Shown piece after piece: positions 2,705-32,594 of a stretch of DNA of 32,594 nucleotides; within the stretch, counting starts at the first letter, position 1, and each line of letters begins with the position of its first letter. The notes under the pieces are model-generated. The model saw only the letters and a list, made by a program, of their open reading frames with translations, did no database searches and was not told the origin of the DNA. The translations under genes were made by a program, and so were the position numbers. This DNA is from an uncultured Clostridia bacterium (GTDB taxonomy: Bacteria > Bacillota > Clostridia > Christensenellales > DTU072), in contig CALVNL010000014.1 of NCBI GenBank assembly GCA_944349655.1, positions 1 to 32,594 on the forward strand, in the 5' to 3' direction.

Positions 2705-3595
2705 TTATTTACCGTATGACGCTATATATGAGGAAAGGCAGGAGATGAATTTTTTACTCGGAGCGGAAAATATGGTATCGGGTTTCCAAACTATGGAAAC
2801 AGGGCTGATTAAAGGCGGATTTAACGGACGGAAACACAATTCCGAATCTTCCGAGACGTCCACCAGTTTATCCAAAGCCAAAGCGTATCCGAGTCCTTGT
2901 TTTACTAAAAGAGAGGCATTGTAGATCAGGTTATAGGTGGCTACTACGTTAAGTCCGTCGCCGTACGGAGCAAACCAGTCGGCAATAATATATTCGTTGA
3001 GAGAATGTTTGGAAAGGATAAGATCCTTGTCGAAGATATCTTCTTTGGTCACGAACGGTTTTTCGGCGAGAGGGGAAGTCTTTTTCATAAGCACGCCCCA
3101 GGTGTCGGCAAGAGGGAGTTTCAAAAAAGAATATTTCGAAAGGTCGGCGGGTTCTATAAGTATCCCGAAATCAATAAGCCCTTTATCGAGTTTTTCTATA
3201 ACTTCGTGGGTATCTCCGCTGAAGAAATCGAATTTGATTTTCGGATATTCTTTTTGCAAACGACTGGCGGTTTCGGCTATGAGTTCCACGGCGTAAGACT
3301 CGCCGCCGCCTATGGCTATCCGTCCTGCGATTTCTCCGTATTTTACCGACAGTTCGCTTTCGGTTTTGTCGGAAAGAGCGATAATTTCCTCGGCACGTTT
3401 TTTAAGAAGTTTTCCCGCTTCGGTCAGAGTTATTTTCCTATTCCCGCGGACGAAGAGCTTTTGTCCGAGTTTGCTTTCCAGCCCCTGCATTTGTCGCGAG
3501 AGATTGGGTTGCGTGAGGAAAAGACTTTCGGCGGCTTTAGATATGCTTCCTTTTTCCGCTACCGCAATAAAATACTTCAATTCCCGTAATTCCAT
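2705..3595 (-). CDS. LysR-family transcriptional regulator
   Basis: This 296-residue protein has the standard LysR layout: a winged helix-turn-helix in the first ~65 residues (opening MELRELKYFIAVAEKGSISK, then AAESLFLTQPNLSRQMQGLE, ending in a FVR...ITLTEAG wing), a linker helix, and a two-lobed periplasmic-binding-like effector domain to the C-terminus. Length is normal. GGAGG lies 5 bases before the ATG. It is transcribed divergently from the acetyltransferase/alcohol dehydrogenase/lipoprotein operon starting at 3725, the usual position of a LysR regulator relative to its target. It therefore most likely controls that operon and itself from the shared 129-base gap. The effector is unknown. 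Confidence 0.92.
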   Translation of the reverse strand: MELRELKYFIAVAEKGSISKAAESLFLTQPNLSRQMQGLESKLGQKLFVRGNRKITLTEAGKLLKKRAEEIIALSDKTESELSVKYGEIAGRIAIGGGESYAVELIAETASRLQKEYPKIKFDFFSGDTHEVIEKLDKGLIDFGILIEPADLSKYSFLKLPLADTWGVLMKKTSPLAEKPFVTKEDIFDKDLILSKHSLNEYIIADWFAPYGDGLNVVATYNLIYNASLLVKQGLGYALALDKLVDVSEDSELCFRPLNPPLISPVSIVWKPDTIFSAPSKKFISCLSSYIASYGK

Positions 3596-20810: not shown

Positions 20811-21650
20811 ATGGAAATTAAAGATATTCTGAAAAAATATAACTTCCGTTTCAATAAGGCTCTCGGGCAGAATTTTATAACCGACGGCAATCTTCTGAAC
20901 GCTATAGCCGCCGACGCGGAAGTCGGTAAGGACGACGTTGTGGTGGAGATAGGCGCAGGAGCGGGGACGCTCACGAGGGTGCTTGCCGAAAAAGCCCGCT
21001 ACGTTTACGCTTTCGAGGTGGACAGAGCTTTACAGCCCGTTCTCGACGAGGTTCTGAAGGCCGTTGACAACGTTACGGCGGTTTTCTCGGACGTTTTGAA
21101 GATGAGCGACGAGGAAATTAAAAATATAGTTTCAGGACCCTTTAAGGTGGTGTCCAATCTCCCATATTATATAACTACTCCTCTGATGACGAGGTTTTTG
21201 GAAAGTTCTCTGCCCGTTACGGAAATGACTTTGCTTATGCAAAAAGAAGTGGCGGAAAGACTTACCGCAAAACCCGGTACGGCAGAATACGGGGCGATAA
21301 CGGTCGGGGTGGAGGCTTTCGCCGACGCTGCCGTAACGAGAATAGTGGGAAGAAACAATTTCTTTCCCGTTCCCAAGGTGGACAGCGCATTGTTAAGGCT
21401 TGTAATCGATAAAAACAAGTATAAAATAGACGATGAAAAATTTTTTAGAAAAACGGTAAAATGCGCGTTTTTATGGCGGCGTAAAACTTTGGCAAATAAT
21501 CTTAAAAATATGTTTTCTTTCACTTCGCAGGACTGTGAAAAAATACTTTCGGAATGTAATTTTGAACCTATGATACGCGGCGAAAAATTGTCGGTAAACG
21601 ATTTTATTTTATTGTCTTCGGTAGTCAAAAAATACCTGAAAAACAGATAA
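20811..21650 (+). CDS. rsmA: 16S rRNA (adenine1518/1519-N6) dimethyltransferase
   Basis: This 279-residue protein is KsgA/RsmA, which dimethylates two adjacent adenines near the 3' end of 16S rRNA late in 30S assembly. It shows NKALGQNFITDGNLL at the start, the SAM-binding motif EIGAGAGTLT (46-55), an acidic FEVD loop, the catalytic NLPYY motif (116-120), PVPKVDSALL and a C-terminal helical domain. Length is typical. AGAGGGAAATA precedes the ATG. I see only a weak promoter-like stretch between 20750 and 20780, so it may be partly transcribed from metG. The usual rnmV gene between tatD and ksgA is absent here. No clear terminator follows. Confidence 0.96.
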   Translation: MEIKDILKKYNFRFNKALGQNFITDGNLLNAIAADAEVGKDDVVVEIGAGAGTLTRVLAEKARYVYAFEVDRALQPVLDEVLKAVDNVTAVFSDVLKMSDEEIKNIVSGPFKVVSNLPYYITTPLMTRFLESSLPVTEMTLLMQKEVAERLTAKPGTAEYGAITVGVEAFADAAVTRIVGRNNFFPVPKVDSALLRLVIDKNKYKIDDEKFFRKTVKCAFLWRRKTLANNLKNMFSFTSQDCEKILSECNFEPMIRGEKLSVNDFILLSSVVKKYLKNR

Positions 21651-21740: not shown

Positions 21741-21770
21741 TTGACATTTTTTTTAATTATATAATATAAT
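21741..21770 (+). promoter_or_regulatory. Strong promoter of the giant surface protein gene
   Basis: Both hexamers are perfect: TTGACA (21741-21746) and TATAAT (21765-21770), separated by 18 bases including a T8 tract. The predicted start near 21777 gives an 85-base leader containing an inverted repeat TTCGGT/ACCGAA (21818-21832), then GGAGG (21848-21852) 9 bases before the ATG. Confidence 0.75.
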
Positions 21771-21861
21771 TATTTCGGAGAAGTCTTTTGATTTGTCCGG
21801 AACTTTGTTTGCATTTATTCGGTCCGACCGAAAAATATTTACTCTGCGGAGGCATTGAATT

Positions 21862-24800
21862 ATGAATAACGGTACCGCCTTGAATCTCAGAATTAAAAAA
21901 GAGGAGTCTTTATCGCGTTTCTTGTCGGAAAGGTTGAAAAAGATAGTTATTCCTTTCCTTCTGGGCGCGATGATACTCGTGCTTTTCCTGGCGACCGGTA
22001 TTTGTTTCGGAAATCCGGATATTGCCATGACCTTATCCGACGAGGTTTACGATTCCGGCAGTGAGCTTACGGAAGGGGGCGTGATCGGACCGGAAACGGA
22101 GGAAGAGTTTTACGCGCAGTTGGACGGGCAGTCCGATTTCGGCGGACTTGACGCCGCTTACGCCATAGGTTCGGCGGGTACTATGGGTCCTAACAGCGTC
22201 AGCGGAAACAACGGTCAATACAAAACCTGGTCAATGACCTACGGCGGAAATCCCGGCGGAAATATGGTAAGCACTTTCTATTGGGCGGGAAACAGAAGTT
22301 CAAACAACCGTTCCACCTGGGGCGGCGGTTGGCAGGTCTGGGGCAGCGGAATCGTGCGTCAGAAAGAGATAATTTTCCGCGGATACGTTTACCTCAGCTT
22401 TTCTACTTTTTTCAGATCGCTTGCGTCAAAAGGTAAATTGTATGTAAGCGGAGCATATGCGGATATTTTTTCGGTCAACGGCTACGATCAACACGTCTGG
22501 TGGGGATACGGCTGGGGGGCGATACATCCTCGGACGGGCGACGGAAACTGGCTTCGCGATTCTTATGCTTCCTGGAATATCTGGACTACCAGTGCAAGAG
22601 GAGAGAGAAAAGGTCATAGTCCCTACGTTCAGGTTCCGACCTGGGCTAGCGGTATTACCATTATGCTGATGTGCCGTACCGACTATAATGCCTGGGTAGG
22701 CGGGCGTTTACCCGGCGGAAAAATTCAGAATATATGGTTCGGTTTTGAAATAAGAGATACCGCGGCTCCTACGGTCACCTTGAAGAATGTCGGGGGTTGG
22801 GCGCAAAGCAAAAGCGTGAAATTTACTCTTTCCGACGACGCCGCGGGGGTCAATAGCGTTCAGTACAGTACCAACAACGGTGCGTCCTATACCAATCTGG
22901 GCAGTCCTTACAATATTAACGGCGTTACCACCGCTCTTAAAATCAGAGCATACGATAAAGCCTCTAACTCTAGAGTTTACGATTTCAGTTTAGCGAAATT
23001 GAAGATAGACCGATCGGCGCCGACGATAACGGGACTTACGTTCGTGGATACGGGGGGAGCGAAGATTTCGAAAGCGACCAGCGGACAGATAAACTTGCGA
23101 ATTACGACCTCGGACGTGGGGTCCGGGGTCTCCTCAGTAGCGGTAACCAATAAATCTACGGGAAAAACTTATACTGCCAAAAAAGTCAGTGCAAACAATT
23201 ATCTTGTCGAAAACGTGGATAACGGTCAGTATTCCGTCGTGGCAAAAGACGGAGTCGGGTGGAGTTCTGCGACGAAGACGGCAAATCTGATTTATAAAGA
23301 TACGCAGATGCCGACTGTCAGCGTAAGTATGACTGCCACGTCGGCGACAAACTATGCCAAGTCTGCAATTACCGCCACTATTACCGTTACGGACGGTACG
23401 GGCGATACCAATGCCAACGTGCTGAATTTACCGGGATTTGCTCAGGCGAGAGAAATAAAGTCTTTGGTAGTCAGCGACGGAGCGAGGACTTATAAAGCGA
23501 CCGCAGGCACTCCCACATATTCCGGCGGGAAAGTTACCGTAAAATATACCGTTCAGTTGCCGTTTACGGGGAGTTACTCTTTCAAGGCGACGGATAACGT
23601 CGATATGACTGCGACTACTTTCAGTCTTAACGGCGGAGCCGCAGTAGACGGTACCTATGTATTTATCGACACCACCGCTCCCTGGATAAGCGGCGTGACA
23701 GTATCAGGCGACGCAAATGTGCTGTGGACGTCTTCCGACGTGACGTTGACCGTAAATTTCAAGGACGACGGTTATACCGCGCCGAGCGGGCAAGGGCTTA
23801 ACCAAGGTAGCGGCGTGGAAAAAGTCAGACTCTTTTACGCTAACGGAAGTCTGATGAAGGAGAAATCGGTAGACGCTTCGGCAACGAGCGTAAGCTTTAC
23901 CTTGACCAAAAACTATAACGAAAACGCTTCTTATAAAATTGTACTGGTAGATGCCGCCGGGAATACTTCCGATTTAGGGGCAGGTGCGGCAAGTTTTAAC
24001 GGGGTCAATTATTCCAACTATTATCAGAATAAAAATAACGTAAATCTTAAAAACGTTACCATATATAAAGATTCCAATCCCGTTAAAATTCAGGTTTTAA
24101 GTGCAGACAAAACTACGGAATATTCCGCAGACCCTTATACTCTTCCCTGGACGACGGCGGCAAGTACGACTTTTGTTCTCAGAGTCACTTTCGGGCCCAG
24201 CGGAGTAACGTTACGTAACAAAGTAGGGTCCTCCGACGCGTTTTTGAGCATCAGCGGGGGAAGTTTCCAGAGTGCCAAAGAAAATTCCGCTTTCAATAAC
24301 GCAGCCAACGTGCGCGAAGTGACCGTTACTTATTCTGCGCAAGGCGTCATACCTTACCAGTTCCAGGCAGCCAACGGCGCCGGGACGATAGCTACAAGTA
24401 ACGTAGTTAATACCAGAATGGACCGTACTCCGCCGGAAGTTAAACTTCTCGGTTTCGGTTCGAGTCTCAGCGGAGGAGCTTCTCTTACTACAGAGGAAGA
24501 CATAATAAACAATATCGAAGACTTTATCAGCGAATCCGATTTCTATAATTCCACTTCCTGGTATAAAAGTTTTATAAGAGCTTATATCCTGATATCCGAC
24601 AGTTATTCCGGCGCGGACGGATCCGATCAGTCCTATTCCGGCGGTACGCAAAGCAGTCTTGCAAAAGGTACTTTATCGTTCAGCCATAACGGTTATACTT
24701 ATACCGAGGTTACCCCGTACTACAGTAAACAGGGCGGAGGGTATTACGTCCTCGGATTGTTGTTGTGGAGTGAAGCCGACATCAGGGCAAAAGCCAGGAA

Positions 24801-27800
24801 TGCGTCGGGGCAGTCTATCGTTATGTCCGACGGAAATCTCGATATCCTGTACGGACAGGGGATTCCCTTTACCTATAATATAGAAATTTCAGACTTTATC
24901 GGGAACAAGAGGTTTGTCACCAATTCCAACAACTCCTCCAACTTGAACTATAACGTCGATCCGTTCAATATAAGTATGGAAATAGTTTCTATAAAAACCG
25001 CCGACGGAGCGGATTACGACTATACTCCCGACGGTAAATCATGGACCAGGCAGGCGGTGACCGTTACCATAAACAAAACCATGGGACTCAGTCCTACGTT
25101 TATAAACTACGGAACCTCGTCGATAGAGGATAAAGACGACGGAACCACTTCGGGCTTAGGCGTATCGCCCACTTCGGCGTGGATGTCGGCGACGACAGAT
25201 TCCGGCTCATCCCGTACTGCTACCGTAGTGCTGACGGCGGAAAGCCGAAGCGAGCAGCTGTTCTTCAAAGTCTTTAACTCCGCCAGGGAAAGTCAGACGT
25301 TTATGTTTAACGGAGAAAGAATAGTCGTTCGTCAGGATACCGATATTCCCACGATGGTGAGTTTCTTCTTCTCGGTCAATCCCGATATAGACTTTAATCC
25401 TTTCGTTCAAGGAGCTCTTAACAAAGACGTACTGCTTTATTACGAAGCTCAAAGAACAGACAACGTTTATACCGTCACCAGGAAATACGTCAACGAAAAT
25501 CTCGATACCGTGTGGGTACACGACGACGTTTATCTTTACGTTATGGCGACCGATTATAACGGCAAAGGTATGGGTTCGGGGATAACATACGTACAAATAA
25601 CCTATAACGGTTCGTACGAATATCTCTATACTTCGCAGACTGGAGAATATCCCAAGTCGATGGTGTACTACGACAGCGCAAGTAAGATAGGGCTTTACAG
25701 AAGCAATAATACTTACGGATATACCAAAGCTACCGAGGTGTTCGGATTAAGTTTCAAACTCATAGACAATCAGAACAATTCCCACTCTTTCTCGGTGGAA
25801 AAAGATTCCGACGGGCATAAACTTCTGCCGGTAGTGGATAAAGTTATTCCCAACGTTTCCATAGAATCCGCTTATTACGGCGGTTCTCAAACGAATTATC
25901 TCGAAAACGGTAAACTTATCGGAAGCGAGGATAATATTATCAGAGAAGATCTTACCGTTAATTTCATATATACGAGCGGTATTTCCGACGTCGGGATTTA
26001 CGCAAGGAAAAACGTCTTTGACGTACCGCTGGATCCGAACGATCCGATTGTCGGATTTTCTTCCGACGCTTTAAGCGGTAAATACGGACTTATTTCCCAG
26101 GCAGGTATAGACCTTAACGACGGAAGCTGGGAACTTCTCGACGGTAAAACAGCCTCCGGAGCGGCGGAAGGCGCGCTGTGGCGCTGGATTACCGAAGCAA
26201 GCGGAAAATCCATAAAGAACCGCTACGACATCATTATAGTCAACGGGGCGGGAGTTTATTATTATCTCGACGCAGGCAACGTGTTTATCGATACCGTCGC
26301 GCCCGAAATTCACGACGAGTTTACTTTCTTTGCGCTCGCCGGAGACGCAGAAAACACCGCCGACGTTATAAATTTCGATTCCCTTAAAAAAATCGATCTC
26401 TCCACTTATACAAACGACAACGTTTACGCATATTTCCGCATTACCGACGCAGCGAGCGGGATAGGTGAAGTTTATACCTATCTTTCGGGCGTAAAAACCT
26501 CCTTGGAAAAGGTTACCGTCAGAAGATCGGTGGACGGTGTTTATTCCGAAGAGGAATATTACCGTCTGTTGCTTACCGAAAACCTCGATTATAAGATTAT
26601 TGCCGTCGATAAAGCGACAAACGTTTCGGAAAGCGCGTCCTTCAAACCGCTTATAGACAAAACCGAAGTAGATCTTAAAATTACCGCCGTTACCGCAAGC
26701 GATAAGATTTATACGAGCGGAAAATTCACCAATGAAAATTATATCCGCCTGACTCTTTATGTCACAACCGGTATAAGCGGCTTCTCGGAAACCACGTTTA
26801 TGTTGAACGACGAAGGACCCTTCGCTATCGATTCGCTTCTGAACGAAGGTAGCTGGGTGATTACCGACAACGGAAGATCGGCTACGGTAAGTTTCTTCCT
26901 CGCCGAAGAACAGAATAAAACTTACACCTTCCGCGCGTACAATAATATAGATACCGAGTATGCTGTGGACGGAATTAAACCTTTCTACGAAAGGCAAATA
27001 ACCATAGCCATCGACCGCACGGCTCCCGTTATCGACGAAAACGACGGAAACTACCTTTTTGTTACCGAAAATTGGCATCCCGACGGACAGGTGCTACAAC
27101 TCAATATCTCCGATCCCAACGATTACGGTTCGGGTATCGCTTCGGTAAAAATCGATTTTACCCTTAACGGCGTGGCACAGCCGCAGGCGGAAATGAAACT
27201 TTCCGACGACGGATATTATTATTCTTATTATAAGGATAAGGAATTCGCTTTAGGGTATTATGCCGATTATACGCTTACCCTTACCGATAACGCCGGGAAC
27301 AGAACGGTTAAAGTAATTCGTCCTAAGGTCGATACCGTAGATCCGTCTTTCGGTGCTTACGCGGACGGCAGTCTGTTCCGCCTTATGACGGCTGCTCGCT
27401 CCGACGACGAGGAGGCGCTCACTCCGTACGAATATACCCCCGATACCTGGACGAAAATGAACGTCGAAAATTATATGAATATCGTTTATTCCATCAGCGG
27501 AGCCCGTCTCCAATACGCTTATGCGGTCAAGGACGGCACTTCCTTCGGAGAATGGAAAGACGCTTTCGGCGCACAGTTTAACTGGGAGGTCGAAGTACCG
27601 CCCACCGAAGCCTGCGGCACCACGGTTTCCGTAAACGATTTCATTTATCTGTTCGACGTCGCTTTCGGCGGCAGTATGGATTACACATATAAATTCCGTA
27701 TCGTCAGCGGAGCGGGCAGAGTAAGCGAGGAACTTACCGTAGGTCGAATAAAAATCGATAAAGTTAAACCGGAAATTGTAGTTAATACGCGTATTAACGG

Positions 27801-30800
27801 AAACAATACCGATTACGGAACGGCAGGGGAAAACGAAACCGTCTTACCCGGTTGGATAGACAACTATCTCTACGTTAACGTTTCCACCCCGTCCACGTTG
27901 GTAAGCGGATATACCGTTTACTACAATATCAGCCAGTCCGATACCCCCGATTGGAAACCCATTACTCTCGGGTTCGTAAATAATCAGAATTTCAATTTCG
28001 ATTATAAGACGCAGCTTCTTATTCATACCGTTACCAACTCTACCAATAACGAAACGTATTCGTATTACTTCGAAAGCGCTTCGGGTATGAGAAGCGAAAT
28101 CTATCACGTAAGGGGTATCAAAATCGATATGGTTAATCCGAGTTTTACTATCTTCGGAGAGGAAAGCGACTCTTTCGGTACTCCGAACACCGATCCCGAT
28201 AAGCTCAATACGGGAACGGCAGCCGATTATACCGGAGACCCGGATAAAAACTATAACTTCGCAAACGCCGTATGGACAGACAGAAACTCCGTAGTTATGA
28301 AAATTTTGATTGAAGAAATCAGAAACTACAGCGGTTTGAGTCTTTACATCAACGACGTTCTTTACGAAGAAATACCTTACGGTACTCCTACGCCATACGA
28401 AAGTTATTACGTGGTGGACAAGACTTCGGACTTTACTTTGGTTTTGAGAAGCGGAGCCAATAAGACCGCGCAACAATCGGCTAAAGTAAGGATAGACAAC
28501 GTTATTCCTATGCTCTATCTTGCGGGCGTCGAAGGCAACAAATCCACTAACTGGGACGATACCGCACCAAACAGCTGGTACACAAGCGTTACCAGACTTA
28601 ATTTCAAGGTCGGTACACTCGTTAAAGGCGAAGACGGCACTTATTCGTTCAGCGACGACTTCCCTGCCAGCGGATACGAAATTCAATATCGCACGGGCAG
28701 AGAAGTGGACGACTCCTGGAATTCCAACGACGCTAGTACCGTTCTTACGGTCGTCGGCAATCCTGCCGAACAGAACGATTATTCCTTCCGTATAGTTTCC
28801 GGTTCGGGAATGACCTTTACTCTCGGTTCTGCGGCTCTCGACAATATGGGTTCGGTTGCGTTTACCAACGAAGAAATTTCCCTTCTTATCGGTAGCGCCG
28901 GCGGATTGATAAGCCATTTGTCGGAAGAAGAATTCAAATATATAGTCAACGTAGACAGCAACGTTTATTATCTCACCACCAGACAGCTCCTCGAATTGGA
29001 AGCCAACGGCAGGGATATACTCGTAACCAGCACTACGTTTGCCGATTATACGGTAGAACTCCTTTTGAACGGATCGTTCACCGTTATACCGGTAGCCGAA
29101 CAGATTTTCCATCGCGGCGATTATATCCGTGTAAGTTATGACACCAACGATTATATTCACCGTTATACCGATTACGGAGTGATAGACGAAAACGGCGACT
29201 GGACGGACGTTAAGGAAACCTACGAGGGCACCGCCGATAACGAAATACAGGGATCGTTCGAATTCAGGTATGTCAACAGTTCCTATACCGTCAAGGCGTA
29301 CTTTATGAAGGAACTCGACGTAACTTACGGCAAAACCGTTATGTATAAACAGTCGGAAACCGAAGCCGCGGTCACTGCAAGTACGTCCTTTACCTATACC
29401 ACCGACCAGGGAGCTATAGACACCGTAACCATACCTTTGCAAATTACTTATACCGATATGAACGGAGTTCCCGCACAGGCGGATAATCTCTCACTCGGCG
29501 GATATATAGTCAATACCGAAGTAGTAGGCAAAAATGCTTTGAGTTTCCGTTTAACCAATCCGCAAACGGTTCTCCTCGTCAAGTATTTCGACGAAAAACT
29601 CGCCTCCGACGGTTCTGAAACGGCTAATTCGGAAACCAATCCTTACGACGTGAGGGCGGCTGTCGATATGGAATATCTGTCCGCCGTTTATTATAAGGAT
29701 TATACCCAAACAGAGGAAGGTTTTGTGTTGGGTACGCCTTACTCTTACTCTACCGCTTATTTCAGAATGAGCGAAGATATTACGCTCGCCGATACCTTTA
29801 CTTCGGTAAGCGGAGTATTCAGCGGTTCCTTCGACGGCAACGGACATACCGTTACCAGAACGGGCGGTATCAGAGTGGACGGAAATTACGGATTGTTTGA
29901 AAATCTTTCCGGTAGCGTGGATAACCTGACGGTTAAATTAAACGGAGAAATAAGCCTTTATAACGTTTCACGTGCAGGTATTCTTGCCCAGACCATTACG
30001 GGCGGAAAAGTTACCGATACAGTGGTACAAGGCAGATTTAACGTGATTACCGCGGCTATGGGTGCACAGATAGGCGGTTTAGCCGGTTCGGTTACCGGTG
30101 CGGAAATAGGTTCTTACAGCGGCGTATCCGACAGACATCCCGTTTATATCGACGTGGTTATTTCCAACCTCGGGAACGCTGTCGCTTCGGCTTCGGTAGG
30201 AGGTCTTACGGGCTATCTCGGCGACGCAAAACTGTTCCATACCTATACCTATTCGCATCTGACGTTCTATAACGTGGACGGCGGAGTAAAAGTGGGCGCG
30301 GTTATAGGTGAGACAGAGCGCACAACTTACGGTGAAGAGGCGTACGAGTACTTCTTCAACAACAGATATCTCGCCGCAAACGTATTCCTCAACGACGCTC
30401 TGAAAGACGGGTTTACGGGAGTTGCGACGGATATTAACGACGCTACGGAAAGCAAAAATACCGTACAGGGACTTTCCTATGAAAACTTTATCGGAGTCGG
30501 TTCCGCTTCTCAGGCCGGTACGGTAAACGTTAACGGCAGTACGATCAGAACTATGGTGCTCGACAGACTTTATTCCGATTTCGGTATCGAAGACGCGGAA
30601 TATGCTTCGGGAACGGGCATTGAAGCCGATCCTCTGCAGATAAGCGTCGTTACTCAGCTCAGGGCTATAGACGAATATATGAACCTCAGTTTCTCGCTTA
30701 TCGAAGACCTCGACCTTTCGGACTTCGGCCAGGCTATCGGGTTGCATAAAGTTTATGCCGGTAAGTTCTTCGGAAACGAACATAAGCTTAATTCCTTCGG

Positions 30801-32220
30801 TATGGGTTACGATATATCCGACGGAGACAGAATAGGGTTGTTCGCCGAAGTCAGCGGCACGGTCACCGATTTGATTTTCCTCGATGTAGCGGTTAATTAT
30901 GAAGGAAATATCGGTAATCTCTATTCCGCTGTGGTTGCCGCAAGACTCAACGGAGGCACGGTAGGAAACGTTTATGCCATAGGTACTTCCGTAGTGGATA
31001 ACGGTAACGGAATGGTTTACTCGGGCGCCGTGGCAGGCGAAGCCGTAAACGCTACGGTTTACGATATATTCAGTATCGTGAATATAAAAGTATCCACTAC
31101 TACGGAGGTTTATGCCGGCGGAATAATCGGAAAATCCGACTCAACTCGTCTGGGTAGTTATACCGACAAATATAACGTAGAAAAAGTCGGCGCGGTATTT
31201 GCTCTCGGCAGGACGGAAATTGTCGGCGATATAGTTCACTCGGCGTCGGCTGTCGCGGAGGGGACCGTACAAGCGGATTCCGTTAACGTGTTTACCATAG
31301 CAGGAAACGTTTATACCAACGGCAAGACCGTAGATAATACTTTATCCGACGCAATAAGCATAGTGGACTTCGAGTCTCTCGAAATGAGAAGCGCGGTATT
31401 CTCTAACGGCGTCAACGCGTTCAATAAAGTTTTCGAAACCGATAATCTTTACTATCTGCAAGGTAAAGGTATTTCTACCGACAAGTTTATAGTAAGCAAC
31501 GTGGAAGATTTTGCAAAAATCGAACATATGCTTTACGCCGACTACAATATTGCAAACGATATCGATTTCGGCGGAACGGAGTTCAAGACTATCGGAGAAG
31601 GTTTACTCTTTACCGGGTCAATAGACGGTAAAAACGAAAACAGCGGAAGCGCTGAAGAAGGAACGGTAAGCAGTCTTACCAACGTGACGGACGCCTTTGT
31701 ATATAATAATGCGGGAAGCATTTCCGACTTGGTTATCAACATTCAGTACGAAAGAACCATAGACGGAGAAGACCTCGTATTCGGTGCCGTTGCGATAATA
31801 AACAGTATCGGAACCATTCGTAACGTAACCGTAAGCGGAACCATCGACATCAACGCACTTAACAAAAACTCCAGCGTAACGGTATCAGGTTTCGTGGGAA
31901 TAGCCGAGGGCGGTAGGATAGAAACCGACAGTAAAGTACAAAACAGCATAAGCGGATTGACTATTACCGTAAGCGACGTACTGACCGTTTACGCAGGCGG
32001 CTTCATCGGACTCGTGGAACACGATATGACGCTTACCTACGGAATAGGCGACGGCGAATTGATTATCGAGAACTGCGACAACGTCAATGCAGGTACGCTC
32101 GTCGGACGCGCTAATGCGGTGTGTGACTGGTCGTCCATTGCAGAAACGGAGGAATACCGTTATACCGTATTTATCGACGGAGTGGAAAGCACCAAACTTT
32201 TCGGATACAAATCCGTCTGA
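21862..32220 (+). CDS. Giant (3452-residue) anchored surface protein: Ig-like repeat array plus GLUG-type beta-solenoid
   Basis: A positively charged N-terminus and one hydrophobic segment (about 28-49) give either a signal anchor or a signal peptide. Residues 120-295 are aromatic-rich, with 14 tryptophans in about 170 residues and a beta-sandwich look. Ig-like modules follow, each opening with an Asp-x-x-x-Pro-type boundary such as DRSAPT, DTTAPW, DRTPPE, DTVAPE, DRTAPV or DKVKPE. I place boundaries at residues 299, 383, 480, 603, 854, 1159, 1326, 1477, 1599 (degenerate), 1718, 1824, 1966, 2089 and 2212. Residues ~2300-2620 are beta-rich and unassigned. Three GLUG-like cassettes start near 2633, 2942 and 3228; the best is GSFDGNGHTVTRTGG then YGLFENLSGSVDNLTVKL. 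Only about five cysteines occur. No LPXTG, SLH, dockerin or C-terminal membrane segment is present, so retention would rely on the N-terminus. An adhesin or carbohydrate-contacting role is inferred; no enzyme domain is recognised. Confidence 0.85.
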   Translation: MNNGTALNLRIKKEESLSRFLSERLKKIVIPFLLGAMILVLFLATGICFGNPDIAMTLSDEVYDSGSELTEGGVIGPETEEEFYAQLDGQSDFGGLDAAYAIGSAGTMGPNSVSGNNGQYKTWSMTYGGNPGGNMVSTFYWAGNRSSNNRSTWGGGWQVWGSGIVRQKEIIFRGYVYLSFSTFFRSLASKGKLYVSGAYADIFSVNGYDQHVWWGYGWGAIHPRTGDGNWLRDSYASWNIWTTSARGERKGHSPYVQVPTWASGITIMLMCRTDYNAWVGGRLPGGKIQNIWFGFEIRDTAAPTVTLKNVGGWAQSKSVKFTLSDDAAGVNSVQYSTNNGASYTNLGSPYNINGVTTALKIRAYDKASNSRVYDFSLAKLKIDRSAPTITGLTFVDTGGAKISKATSGQINLRITTSDVGSGVSSVAVTNKSTGKTYTAKKVSANNYLVENVDNGQYSVVAKDGVGWSSATKTANLIYKDTQMPTVSVSMTATSATNYAKSAITATITVTDGTGDTNANVLNLPGFAQAREIKSLVVSDGARTYKATAGTPTYSGGKVTVKYTVQLPFTGSYSFKATDNVDMTATTFSLNGGAAVDGTYVFIDTTAPWISGVTVSGDANVLWTSSDVTLTVNFKDDGYTAPSGQGLNQGSGVEKVRLFYANGSLMKEKSVDASATSVSFTLTKNYNENASYKIVLVDAAGNTSDLGAGAASFNGVNYSNYYQNKNNVNLKNVTIYKDSNPVKIQVLSADKTTEYSADPYTLPWTTAASTTFVLRVTFGPSGVTLRNKVGSSDAFLSISGGSFQSAKENSAFNNAANVREVTVTYSAQGVIPYQFQAANGAGTIATSNVVNTRMDRTPPEVKLLGFGSSLSGGASLTTEEDIINNIEDFISESDFYNSTSWYKSFIRAYILISDSYSGADGSDQSYSGGTQSSLAKGTLSFSHNGYTYTEVTPYYSKQGGGYYVLGLLLWSEADIRAKARNASGQSIVMSDGNLDILYGQGIPFTYNIEISDFIGNKRFVTNSNNSSNLNYNVDPFNISMEIVSIKTADGADYDYTPDGKSWTRQAVTVTINKTMGLSPTFINYGTSSIEDKDDGTTSGLGVSPTSAWMSATTDSGSSRTATVVLTAESRSEQLFFKVFNSARESQTFMFNGERIVVRQDTDIPTMVSFFFSVNPDIDFNPFVQGALNKDVLLYYEAQRTDNVYTVTRKYVNENLDTVWVHDDVYLYVMATDYNGKGMGSGITYVQITYNGSYEYLYTSQTGEYPKSMVYYDSASKIGLYRSNNTYGYTKATEVFGLSFKLIDNQNNSHSFSVEKDSDGHKLLPVVDKVIPNVSIESAYYGGSQTNYLENGKLIGSEDNIIREDLTVNFIYTSGISDVGIYARKNVFDVPLDPNDPIVGFSSDALSGKYGLISQAGIDLNDGSWELLDGKTASGAAEGALWRWITEASGKSIKNRYDIIIVNGAGVYYYLDAGNVFIDTVAPEIHDEFTFFALAGDAENTADVINFDSLKKIDLSTYTNDNVYAYFRITDAASGIGEVYTYLSGVKTSLEKVTVRRSVDGVYSEEEYYRLLLTENLDYKIIAVDKATNVSESASFKPLIDKTEVDLKITAVTASDKIYTSGKFTNENYIRLTLYVTTGISGFSETTFMLNDEGPFAIDSLLNEGSWVITDNGRSATVSFFLAEEQNKTYTFRAYNNIDTEYAVDGIKPFYERQITIAIDRTAPVIDENDGNYLFVTENWHPDGQVLQLNISDPNDYGSGIASVKIDFTLNGVAQPQAEMKLSDDGYYYSYYKDKEFALGYYADYTLTLTDNAGNRTVKVIRPKVDTVDPSFGAYADGSLFRLMTAARSDDEEALTPYEYTPDTWTKMNVENYMNIVYSISGARLQYAYAVKDGTSFGEWKDAFGAQFNWEVEVPPTEACGTTVSVNDFIYLFDVAFGGSMDYTYKFRIVSGAGRVSEELTVGRIKIDKVKPEIVVNTRINGNNTDYGTAGENETVLPGWIDNYLYVNVSTPSTLVSGYTVYYNISQSDTPDWKPITLGFVNNQNFNFDYKTQLLIHTVTNSTNNETYSYYFESASGMRSEIYHVRGIKIDMVNPSFTIFGEESDSFGTPNTDPDKLNTGTAADYTGDPDKNYNFANAVWTDRNSVVMKILIEEIRNYSGLSLYINDVLYEEIPYGTPTPYESYYVVDKTSDFTLVLRSGANKTAQQSAKVRIDNVIPMLYLAGVEGNKSTNWDDTAPNSWYTSVTRLNFKVGTLVKGEDGTYSFSDDFPASGYEIQYRTGREVDDSWNSNDASTVLTVVGNPAEQNDYSFRIVSGSGMTFTLGSAALDNMGSVAFTNEEISLLIGSAGGLISHLSEEEFKYIVNVDSNVYYLTTRQLLELEANGRDILVTSTTFADYTVELLLNGSFTVIPVAEQIFHRGDYIRVSYDTNDYIHRYTDYGVIDENGDWTDVKETYEGTADNEIQGSFEFRYVNSSYTVKAYFMKELDVTYGKTVMYKQSETEAAVTASTSFTYTTDQGAIDTVTIPLQITYTDMNGVPAQADNLSLGGYIVNTEVVGKNALSFRLTNPQTVLLVKYFDEKLASDGSETANSETNPYDVRAAVDMEYLSAVYYKDYTQTEEGFVLGTPYSYSTAYFRMSEDITLADTFTSVSGVFSGSFDGNGHTVTRTGGIRVDGNYGLFENLSGSVDNLTVKLNGEISLYNVSRAGILAQTITGGKVTDTVVQGRFNVITAAMGAQIGGLAGSVTGAEIGSYSGVSDRHPVYIDVVISNLGNAVASASVGGLTGYLGDAKLFHTYTYSHLTFYNVDGGVKVGAVIGETERTTYGEEAYEYFFNNRYLAANVFLNDALKDGFTGVATDINDATESKNTVQGLSYENFIGVGSASQAGTVNVNGSTIRTMVLDRLYSDFGIEDAEYASGTGIEADPLQISVVTQLRAIDEYMNLSFSLIEDLDLSDFGQAIGLHKVYAGKFFGNEHKLNSFGMGYDISDGDRIGLFAEVSGTVTDLIFLDVAVNYEGNIGNLYSAVVAARLNGGTVGNVYAIGTSVVDNGNGMVYSGAVAGEAVNATVYDIFSIVNIKVSTTTEVYAGGIIGKSDSTRLGSYTDKYNVEKVGAVFALGRTEIVGDIVHSASAVAEGTVQADSVNVFTIAGNVYTNGKTVDNTLSDAISIVDFESLEMRSAVFSNGVNAFNKVFETDNLYYLQGKGISTDKFIVSNVEDFAKIEHMLYADYNIANDIDFGGTEFKTIGEGLLFTGSIDGKNENSGSAEEGTVSSLTNVTDAFVYNNAGSISDLVINIQYERTIDGEDLVFGAVAIINSIGTIRNVTVSGTIDINALNKNSSVTVSGFVGIAEGGRIETDSKVQNSISGLTITVSDVLTVYAGGFIGLVEHDMTLTYGIGDGELIIENCDNVNAGTLVGRANAVCDWSSIAETEEYRYTVFIDGVESTKLFGYKSV

Positions 32221-32232
32221 TACTACAGCATA

Positions 32233-32266
32233 AAAGGGGCGTATGACAATATACGCCCCTTTTTTT
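32233..32266 (+). terminator. Strong intrinsic terminator of the giant gene
   Basis: A 12-bp stem (32233-32244 with 32251-32262; core GGGGCGTAT/ATACGCCCC) with a 6-base loop ends in seven T residues (32260-32266), 12 bases after the stop codon. Confidence 0.92.
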
Positions 32267-32393: not shown

Positions 32394-32408
32394 AAAAAAA
32401 CATACCCA
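32387..32408 (+). repeat. tRNA 3' end/terminator repeat, copy 1
   Basis: GGTCACC, an A8 run and CATACCCA recur at 32572-32594 with an A7 run. Copy 1 is the functional tRNA 3' end plus the first arm of its terminator. See the second copy and the element between them. Confidence 0.8.
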
Positions 32409-32432
32409 TTTATTAGTGGGTATGTTTTTTTT
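32393..32432 (+). terminator. Terminator of tRNA-Glu
   Basis: Beginning at the last base of the CCA, an A8 tract plus CATACCCA (32401-32408) pairs with TGGGTATG (32417-32424) plus T8 (32425-32432) around an 8-base loop. The A and T tracts let the stem extend to about 16 bp. Confidence 0.9.
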
Positions 32433-32571
32433 GCCCAAGAGATAGACCCCTGTCAGGAGTTCGCAAATTCTGCGAAGCAGAATCTGGCGGCAGATTTAAG
32501 AAATAGAAAGGTAAAATAAAATCAAAAGAGAAATAAATGAAAGGAATATTCTGCCGCTATCTCCTAAATAG
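32433..32571. repeat. Non-coding hairpin-rich element between tRNA-end repeats
   Basis: No gene is visible in these ~140 bases. The segment holds a second CAGGAGTTCG (32454-32463), identical to 10 bases of the tRNA T arm (32365-32374). Two back-to-back perfect hairpins follow: ATTCTGC-GAA-GCAGAAT (32467-32483) and AATCTG-GCGG-CAGATT (32481-32496). An inverted repeat GCGGCAGA (32487-32494) / TCTGCCGC (32550-32557) brackets an A-rich stretch. ATCTCCT (32559-32565) again matches the tRNA (32376-32382). It looks like a tRNA 3'-half copy broken by an inserted small structured element, possibly a MITE or REP-like unit. This is inference from matches seen by eye. Confidence 0.5.
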
Positions 32572-32594
32572 TGGTCACCAAAAAAACATACCCA
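32572..32594 (+). repeat. tRNA 3' end/terminator repeat, copy 2 (cut by window edge)
   Basis: GGTCACC, A7 and CATACCCA repeat the end of tRNA-Glu and its terminator arm, about 185 bases after copy 1. There is no complete tRNA directly upstream, so this is a tRNA-end remnant or an attachment-site-like duplication. The rest lies beyond the window. Confidence 0.7.

Follow-up and report, generated by a model that had tools for sequence, protein, structure and literature searches.

The window, meaning here the whole stretch of DNA analysed, is a complete contig (C14) of 32,594 bp from a genome of 1.66 Mb. At positions 21862..32220 of its + strand lies the single gene of the giant protein with an Ig-like array and GLUG-type cassettes that was described in an earlier note on this DNA. 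The 3,452-aa product has a mass of about 375 kDa and a pI of 4.5, the ATG start codon is preceded by GGAGG, and orthologues are present in G009, G003, G002, G008, G010, G011, and other genomes. The earlier statements that its promoter is the best of the window and its terminator strong both hold: apart from the sigma-70 promoter TTGACA-N18-TATAAT (21741..21770, +), no site in the window gives a 12/12 match, and the intrinsic terminator hairpin at about 32232..32263 (+) has a folding energy of -20.3 kcal/mol (z = -5.3). Over a block of 54 nt that takes in the promoter and the start of the leader, the nearest species has exactly the same sequence, the adjoining intergenic DNA having diverged. 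The gene stands isolated between ksgA (20811..21650, +) and a tRNA-Glu gene. This upstream neighbour is conserved in the window's genus, where ksgA directly precedes the giant gene in G000, G009, G003, and G008 and lies nearby in G002, as well as in the sister genus g2 (G010 and G011); G004 is an exception to the arrangement. Following tRNA-Glu, at 32394-32594, there is a short AT-rich hairpin element, and its recurrence where the contig ends makes it probable that the contig breaks off at a repeat. At positions 1-1670 aconitase X is encoded by two adjoining genes, for the large and the swivel domains, overlapping by four bases.

The order of the domains given earlier, from the N-terminal hydrophobic segment and a Trp-rich head through the Ig-like array and a beta region to three GLUG-type cassettes, is borne out and recurs in the orthologues. 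The Ig-like array, delimited by motif, structural model, and Foldseek, spans residues 298-2326 (22753..28836, +). Its boundary motif, [IVLM]Dxx(x)PxPhi, was found 12 times in the protein versus 0.7 times in shuffled sequences; with degenerate forms included, there are 16-17 boundaries spaced by 84-178 residues. Two long gaps had been suspected of concealing degenerate boundaries, and these were found at residues 735 (YKDSNPVKI) and 1031 (NVDPFNI). Residues about 391-471 are modelled as a beta-sandwich with Foldseek matches of the Bap/SiiE type, and it is from this model together with the motif periodicity that the tandem beta-sandwiches of a bacterial Ig-like array adhesin are recognised. An NCBIfam OmpL47-like match at residues 313-370 stays under its cut-off, and no Pfam Ig family exceeds its own in this protein. 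In a repeat self-alignment (BLASTP) the domain copies show no mutual similarity at E < 0.01. Between the array and the cassettes, the beta region (residues 2326-2593; 28837..29640, +) has neither a boundary motif nor a family match.

The three GLUG-type beta-helix cassettes, defined by sequence cores and the structural model, comprise residues 2594-2830 (29641..30351, +), 2920-3160 (30619..31341, +), and, together with the C-terminus, 3205-3452 (31474..32217, +). Seven GLUG-like cores (G-G-hydrophobic-x-G) are present in residues 2594-3452 versus 0.7 in shuffles, and their groups coincide with the three beta-helical segments of the C-terminal model, which is weak overall (mean pLDDT 57) and often reaches 70-90 locally in the beta-helical parts. 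A beta-helix with such cores is what defines the GLUG type structurally; the GLUG profile PF07581 finds no match in the window protein, and in relatives it yields E values of 0.0036-0.0077, the relative in G028 attaining 18 of the 20.5 bits of the gathering score and so remaining below threshold. Scans of the window protein with Pfam and NCBIfam yielded no match exceeding a curated cut-off; the labels "Ig" and "GLUG" are therefore based on motifs, on the fold, and on relatives. A sequence search against solved structures gave no match either.

For the C-terminal model, Foldseek ranked highest the Bacteroides putative IgA1 protease 3n6z (probability 0.99, E 0.013) and M26 IgA1 proteases, with no E value better than 0.013. 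Such a resemblance, along with the lack of any anchor described below, would suit a matrix or effector protein that is released freely, is not retained, and acts on host or dietary polymers. However, the protein contains no HExxH motif and matches no peptidase or glycoside-hydrolase family, which sets it apart from the M26 IgA1 proteases. Ig rods of giant size are, moreover, typical of cell-attached fibres, and the constraint extending over the whole length of the giant (see below) suggests a structural role, which argues against free secretion; we regard this reading as improbable.

Comparison with other genomes indicates that the giant gene is a core, vertically inherited gene of the family rather than a lineage-specific adhesin. 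BLASTP against the G003 orthologue gives one alignment covering residues 134-3441 of the window protein at 29% identity; since this single alignment is colinear, the domain order has been inherited and not reshuffled. With the C-terminal profile, matches were obtained in 33 of the 40 family genomes, many of them with open reading frames of about 2,900-4,300 aa, 33 being an upper bound for true orthologues because the weaker matches include other GLUG proteins. At a threshold of 1e-10 the same profile matches 21 of the 297 genomes of the order, four of which are outside the family, all with weak matches. The first 436 residues have relatives in the same genus only, and a scan of genome contigs with this N-terminal part gave no match. 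A contig search with the C-terminal alignment retrieved four named relatives, with names such as "uncultured Christensenella sp." and "uncultured Clostridia bacterium", which are labels and not a verified classification. No paper on this bacterial family was found in a literature search.

Relative to G009, dN/dS of the giant gene is 0.13 overall. It is highest in the head and the first Ig domains (0.18-0.31) and lowest at residues 2009-2258 (0.03), the last GLUG cassette also being highly constrained (0.05 for residues 3259-3452). That the gene is a chance open frame or a low-complexity repeat expansion might be supposed from the length of the ORF and the lack of a curated domain match, but the purifying selection, the colinear orthologues in several genera, the conserved promoter, and the absence of repeat self-similarity at E < 0.01 leave this supposition a negligible probability, and the conservation of the orthologues refutes it. 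Two orthologues have irregular frames. In G004 (L009:7798-17046) one in-frame stop follows 1,131 open codons, after which the frame resumes, either a real feature or an assembly error; in G001 (L074:1-11261) the gene is split into two overlapping frames beside unresolved bases, probably at an assembly gap.

The earlier note had found no LPXTG, SLH, or C-terminal membrane segment, and this is correct and conserved in the orthologues: the only LPXTG-like sequence, LPFTG at residue 566, lies within the Ig array and does not represent a C-terminal sorting signal, no SLH domain is present, and a C-terminal hydrophobic segment is absent from both the window translation and the G009 orthologue. Neither a sortase nor an SLH domain was detected in any of 38 family genomes, so that the missing LPXTG and SLH say little. 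The earlier claim of an unusual topology finds only partial support. Other surface proteins of the same genome (L148 and L151) end in a transmembrane (TM) segment with a basic tail, and by lacking one the giant deviates from what is usual in this genome, whereas the want of LPXTG and SLH is the rule in the family. Export of the diderm type was rejected, as no Omp85 was detected in the own genome. Lipoprotein anchoring was rejected as well, C48 lying outside a canonical lipobox and not being conserved in G002, G003, and G004.

Residues 1-50 (21862..22011, +) form a predicted export signal with a long basic n-region of about 30 residues and a 22-aa hydrophobic segment closed by a conserved GxxxG, after which signal peptidase (SPase) could cut at the predicted compatible site G50|N51. 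Residues 51-101 (22012..22164, +) make up an acidic spacer (net charge -13) ending in AAYA, and sequence comparison points to A101|I102 as a candidate processing site. Each of the eight giants examined from the window's genus and the sister genus g2 shows the succession of acidic spacer, AxA-type site, and head, the site directly preceding the head. Of 25 N-termini belonging to giants and their partners (see below), 24 have AxA in the 62 residues counted from where the hydrophobic segment ends, versus 13.1 +/- 2.3 expected; the distance is 4-50 residues in most orthologues and mostly 6-12 in those of other genera. In the window's genus the spacer is 22-156 residues long. Its longest form was seen in the G008 orthologue (L071, residues 62-217 of the open frame), where it has grown to 156 residues with a net charge of -31 and is followed by AAYA and the Trp-rich head.

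Both an SPase-compatible site and TM-like features are therefore seen in this N-terminus, and the main rival of the retained-fibre reading favoured below is an uncleaved type II signal anchor, by which the chain would hang from its N-terminus, the acidic spacer crossing the wall and the GLUG cassettes standing at the tip. The long n-region and the hydrophobic core are in keeping with it, and the conserved GxxxG could be a TM-packing motif of such an anchor; a search for anchors of other kinds was negative. In addition, AxA in the window's genus is not near the hydrophobic segment: it lies about 50 residues behind it in the window protein and about 155 in G008, far from the usual position of a signal-peptidase site, which counts against cleavage there. 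Against the signal anchor stand the site at G50|N51, the close AxA of most orthologues from other genera, and the occurrence of the same AxA before the mature part of the partner protein, which already has a C-terminal anchor. Furthermore, constraint on the last GLUG cassette exceeds that on the head: this cassette ranks among the most constrained parts while the head and the first Ig domain evolve fastest, which is not the pattern of a variable adhesive tip. We consider the signal anchor a serious but doubtful candidate. The earlier view of the N-terminal segment as an anchor is supported by its TM-like features, yet the AAYA junction and the SPase-compatible site make it more likely, judging from sequence, that the segment belongs to a cleaved presequence; the extension from the N-terminus with GLUG at the tip is accordingly not established. 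A signal peptidase I gene is present in the own genome. As for paralogues sharing the N-terminus, which had also been raised, none was convincing in this genome, the strong matches being orthologues; the best other match there is a 237-aa protein on C11 (E 3e-4) with a lipoprotein-like signal.

Behind the spacer lies the basic Trp-rich head (residues 102-297; 22165..22752, +), with a net charge of +9 and a pI of 9.8, contrasting with the strongly acidic rod. The domain is defined by composition; its model, of low pLDDT (mean 47), is too poor to interpret, so the Foldseek matches of this region were disregarded. Despite a likeness seen by eye, hhalign did not link the head of the window's genus to the heads of other genera or of the partners, and no shared head family is claimed.

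In the genera g4, g8, g9, and g10 the gene next after that of the giant, on the same strand, encodes another giant, which measures 2,481-3,604 aa and contains MBG-like repeats. In eight genomes of sister genera this partner, located directly downstream of the orthologue in L105, L106, L107, L108, L109, L110, L111, and L112, has a C-terminal TM segment followed by a basic tail. A profile of its C-terminal part finds full-length or near-full-length matches in most other genera; in the window's genus (ten genomes) and in g2 (three) it finds only weak MBG-like matches, none of full length. In three g10 genomes the partner gene is followed by one of about 250-270 aa (L105:11074-11868, L108:6901-7716, and L109:8414-9166), the products being similar to one another and sugar isomerase-like by eye. 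MBG-like matches also occur in open frames of 11,351 aa (G022:C138), 8,009 aa (G009:C9), 7,908 aa (G030:C6), and 7,750 aa (G010:C35), and such frames suggest that giant surface proteins are numerous in the family.

A basic head is found in seven of eight giants from the partner-less genera, that of G011 being near neutral, versus one of nine (G025, the exception) from the partner-bearing genera. As the Fisher test (P = 0.003) was made without correction for phylogeny, the correlation is only suggestive. One may imagine a switch from two giants to one, in which an acidic pro-region is cut off at AAYA and the basic head then tethers the fibre to the wall by itself, replacing docking on the partner; this specific scenario we hold to be rather unlikely.

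The reading we favour, giving it an even chance, is that of a secreted fibre of the cell envelope, cleaved, tethered by its head, and retained non-covalently, with a presumed structural or adhesive role. The giant would be exported by the Sec pathway, and signal peptidase or a second protease would cut it at A101|I102, with loss of the hydrophobic segment and the acidic spacer, or earlier, at G50|N51. The mature rod would then consist of about 16 Ig-like domains followed by the three beta-helix cassettes, strongly acidic and devoid of a membrane segment. Non-covalent retention would most likely be achieved by binding of the basic Trp-rich head to anionic wall polymers, with partial release from the cell. 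In the sister genera the adjacent, C-terminally membrane-anchored giant would do the holding, probably serving as a dock for the first; the window's genus and its nearest sister have no such partner.

It is worth stressing that most genomes of the family, although small, have retained a gene for an exported protein some 3,000-4,300 residues long, apparently without sortase or SLH domains. The occurrence of the giant with and without a membrane-anchored neighbour offers a natural comparison for fibre display in sortase-less monoderms, and the gene, being nearly confined to the family, is a potential marker of these uncultured organisms.

Several known systems share features with the window giant. 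SiiE, a type I-secreted adhesin of Gram-negative bacteria, and Bap, which is sortase-anchored, resemble it in the long tandem Ig-like stalk and were matched by Foldseek (Bap through its C region), but neither route of export or anchoring is evident for the window giant, and its Ig copies have no BLASTP-detectable similarity to one another. The likeness to M26 IgA1 proteases and BACOVA_03286 (3n6z), the best matches of the C-terminal model, lies in the beta-helix; the window giant differs by having three C-terminal cassettes and no metalloprotease domain or HExxH, and the match is weaker than E 0.001. Within the family, the MBG-like giants such as L107 and G030 are also exported, measure 2,500-3,600 aa, show the same layout of hydrophobic segment, spacer, and AxA, and are encoded by the adjacent gene in sister genera, but they have a C-terminal TM anchor and MBG-like repeats and, as orthologues, are absent from the window's genus. 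The closest published parallel is provided by Giant1-5 of Apilactobacillus kunkeei, extracellular rods of 3,000-8,000 aa from a 1.5 Mb genome, with a beta-solenoid, an Ig-like domain, and no predicted TM segment (PMC12863079). They have a basic wall-binding end and were found in both cell lysate and supernatant, which was read as loose attachment (PMC12863079). The window giant shares with them the giant size, the lack of a TM segment, and a basic end, which in A. kunkeei is the wall-binding one (PMC12863079). The A. kunkeei rods, however, are built of alpha-helical repeats instead of an Ig-like array, their beta-solenoid is N-terminal and not C-terminal, their wall-binding domain is SH3b-like, a type not found in the window giant, and they recombine and duplicate (PMC12863079), whereas the window giant is single and colinear.
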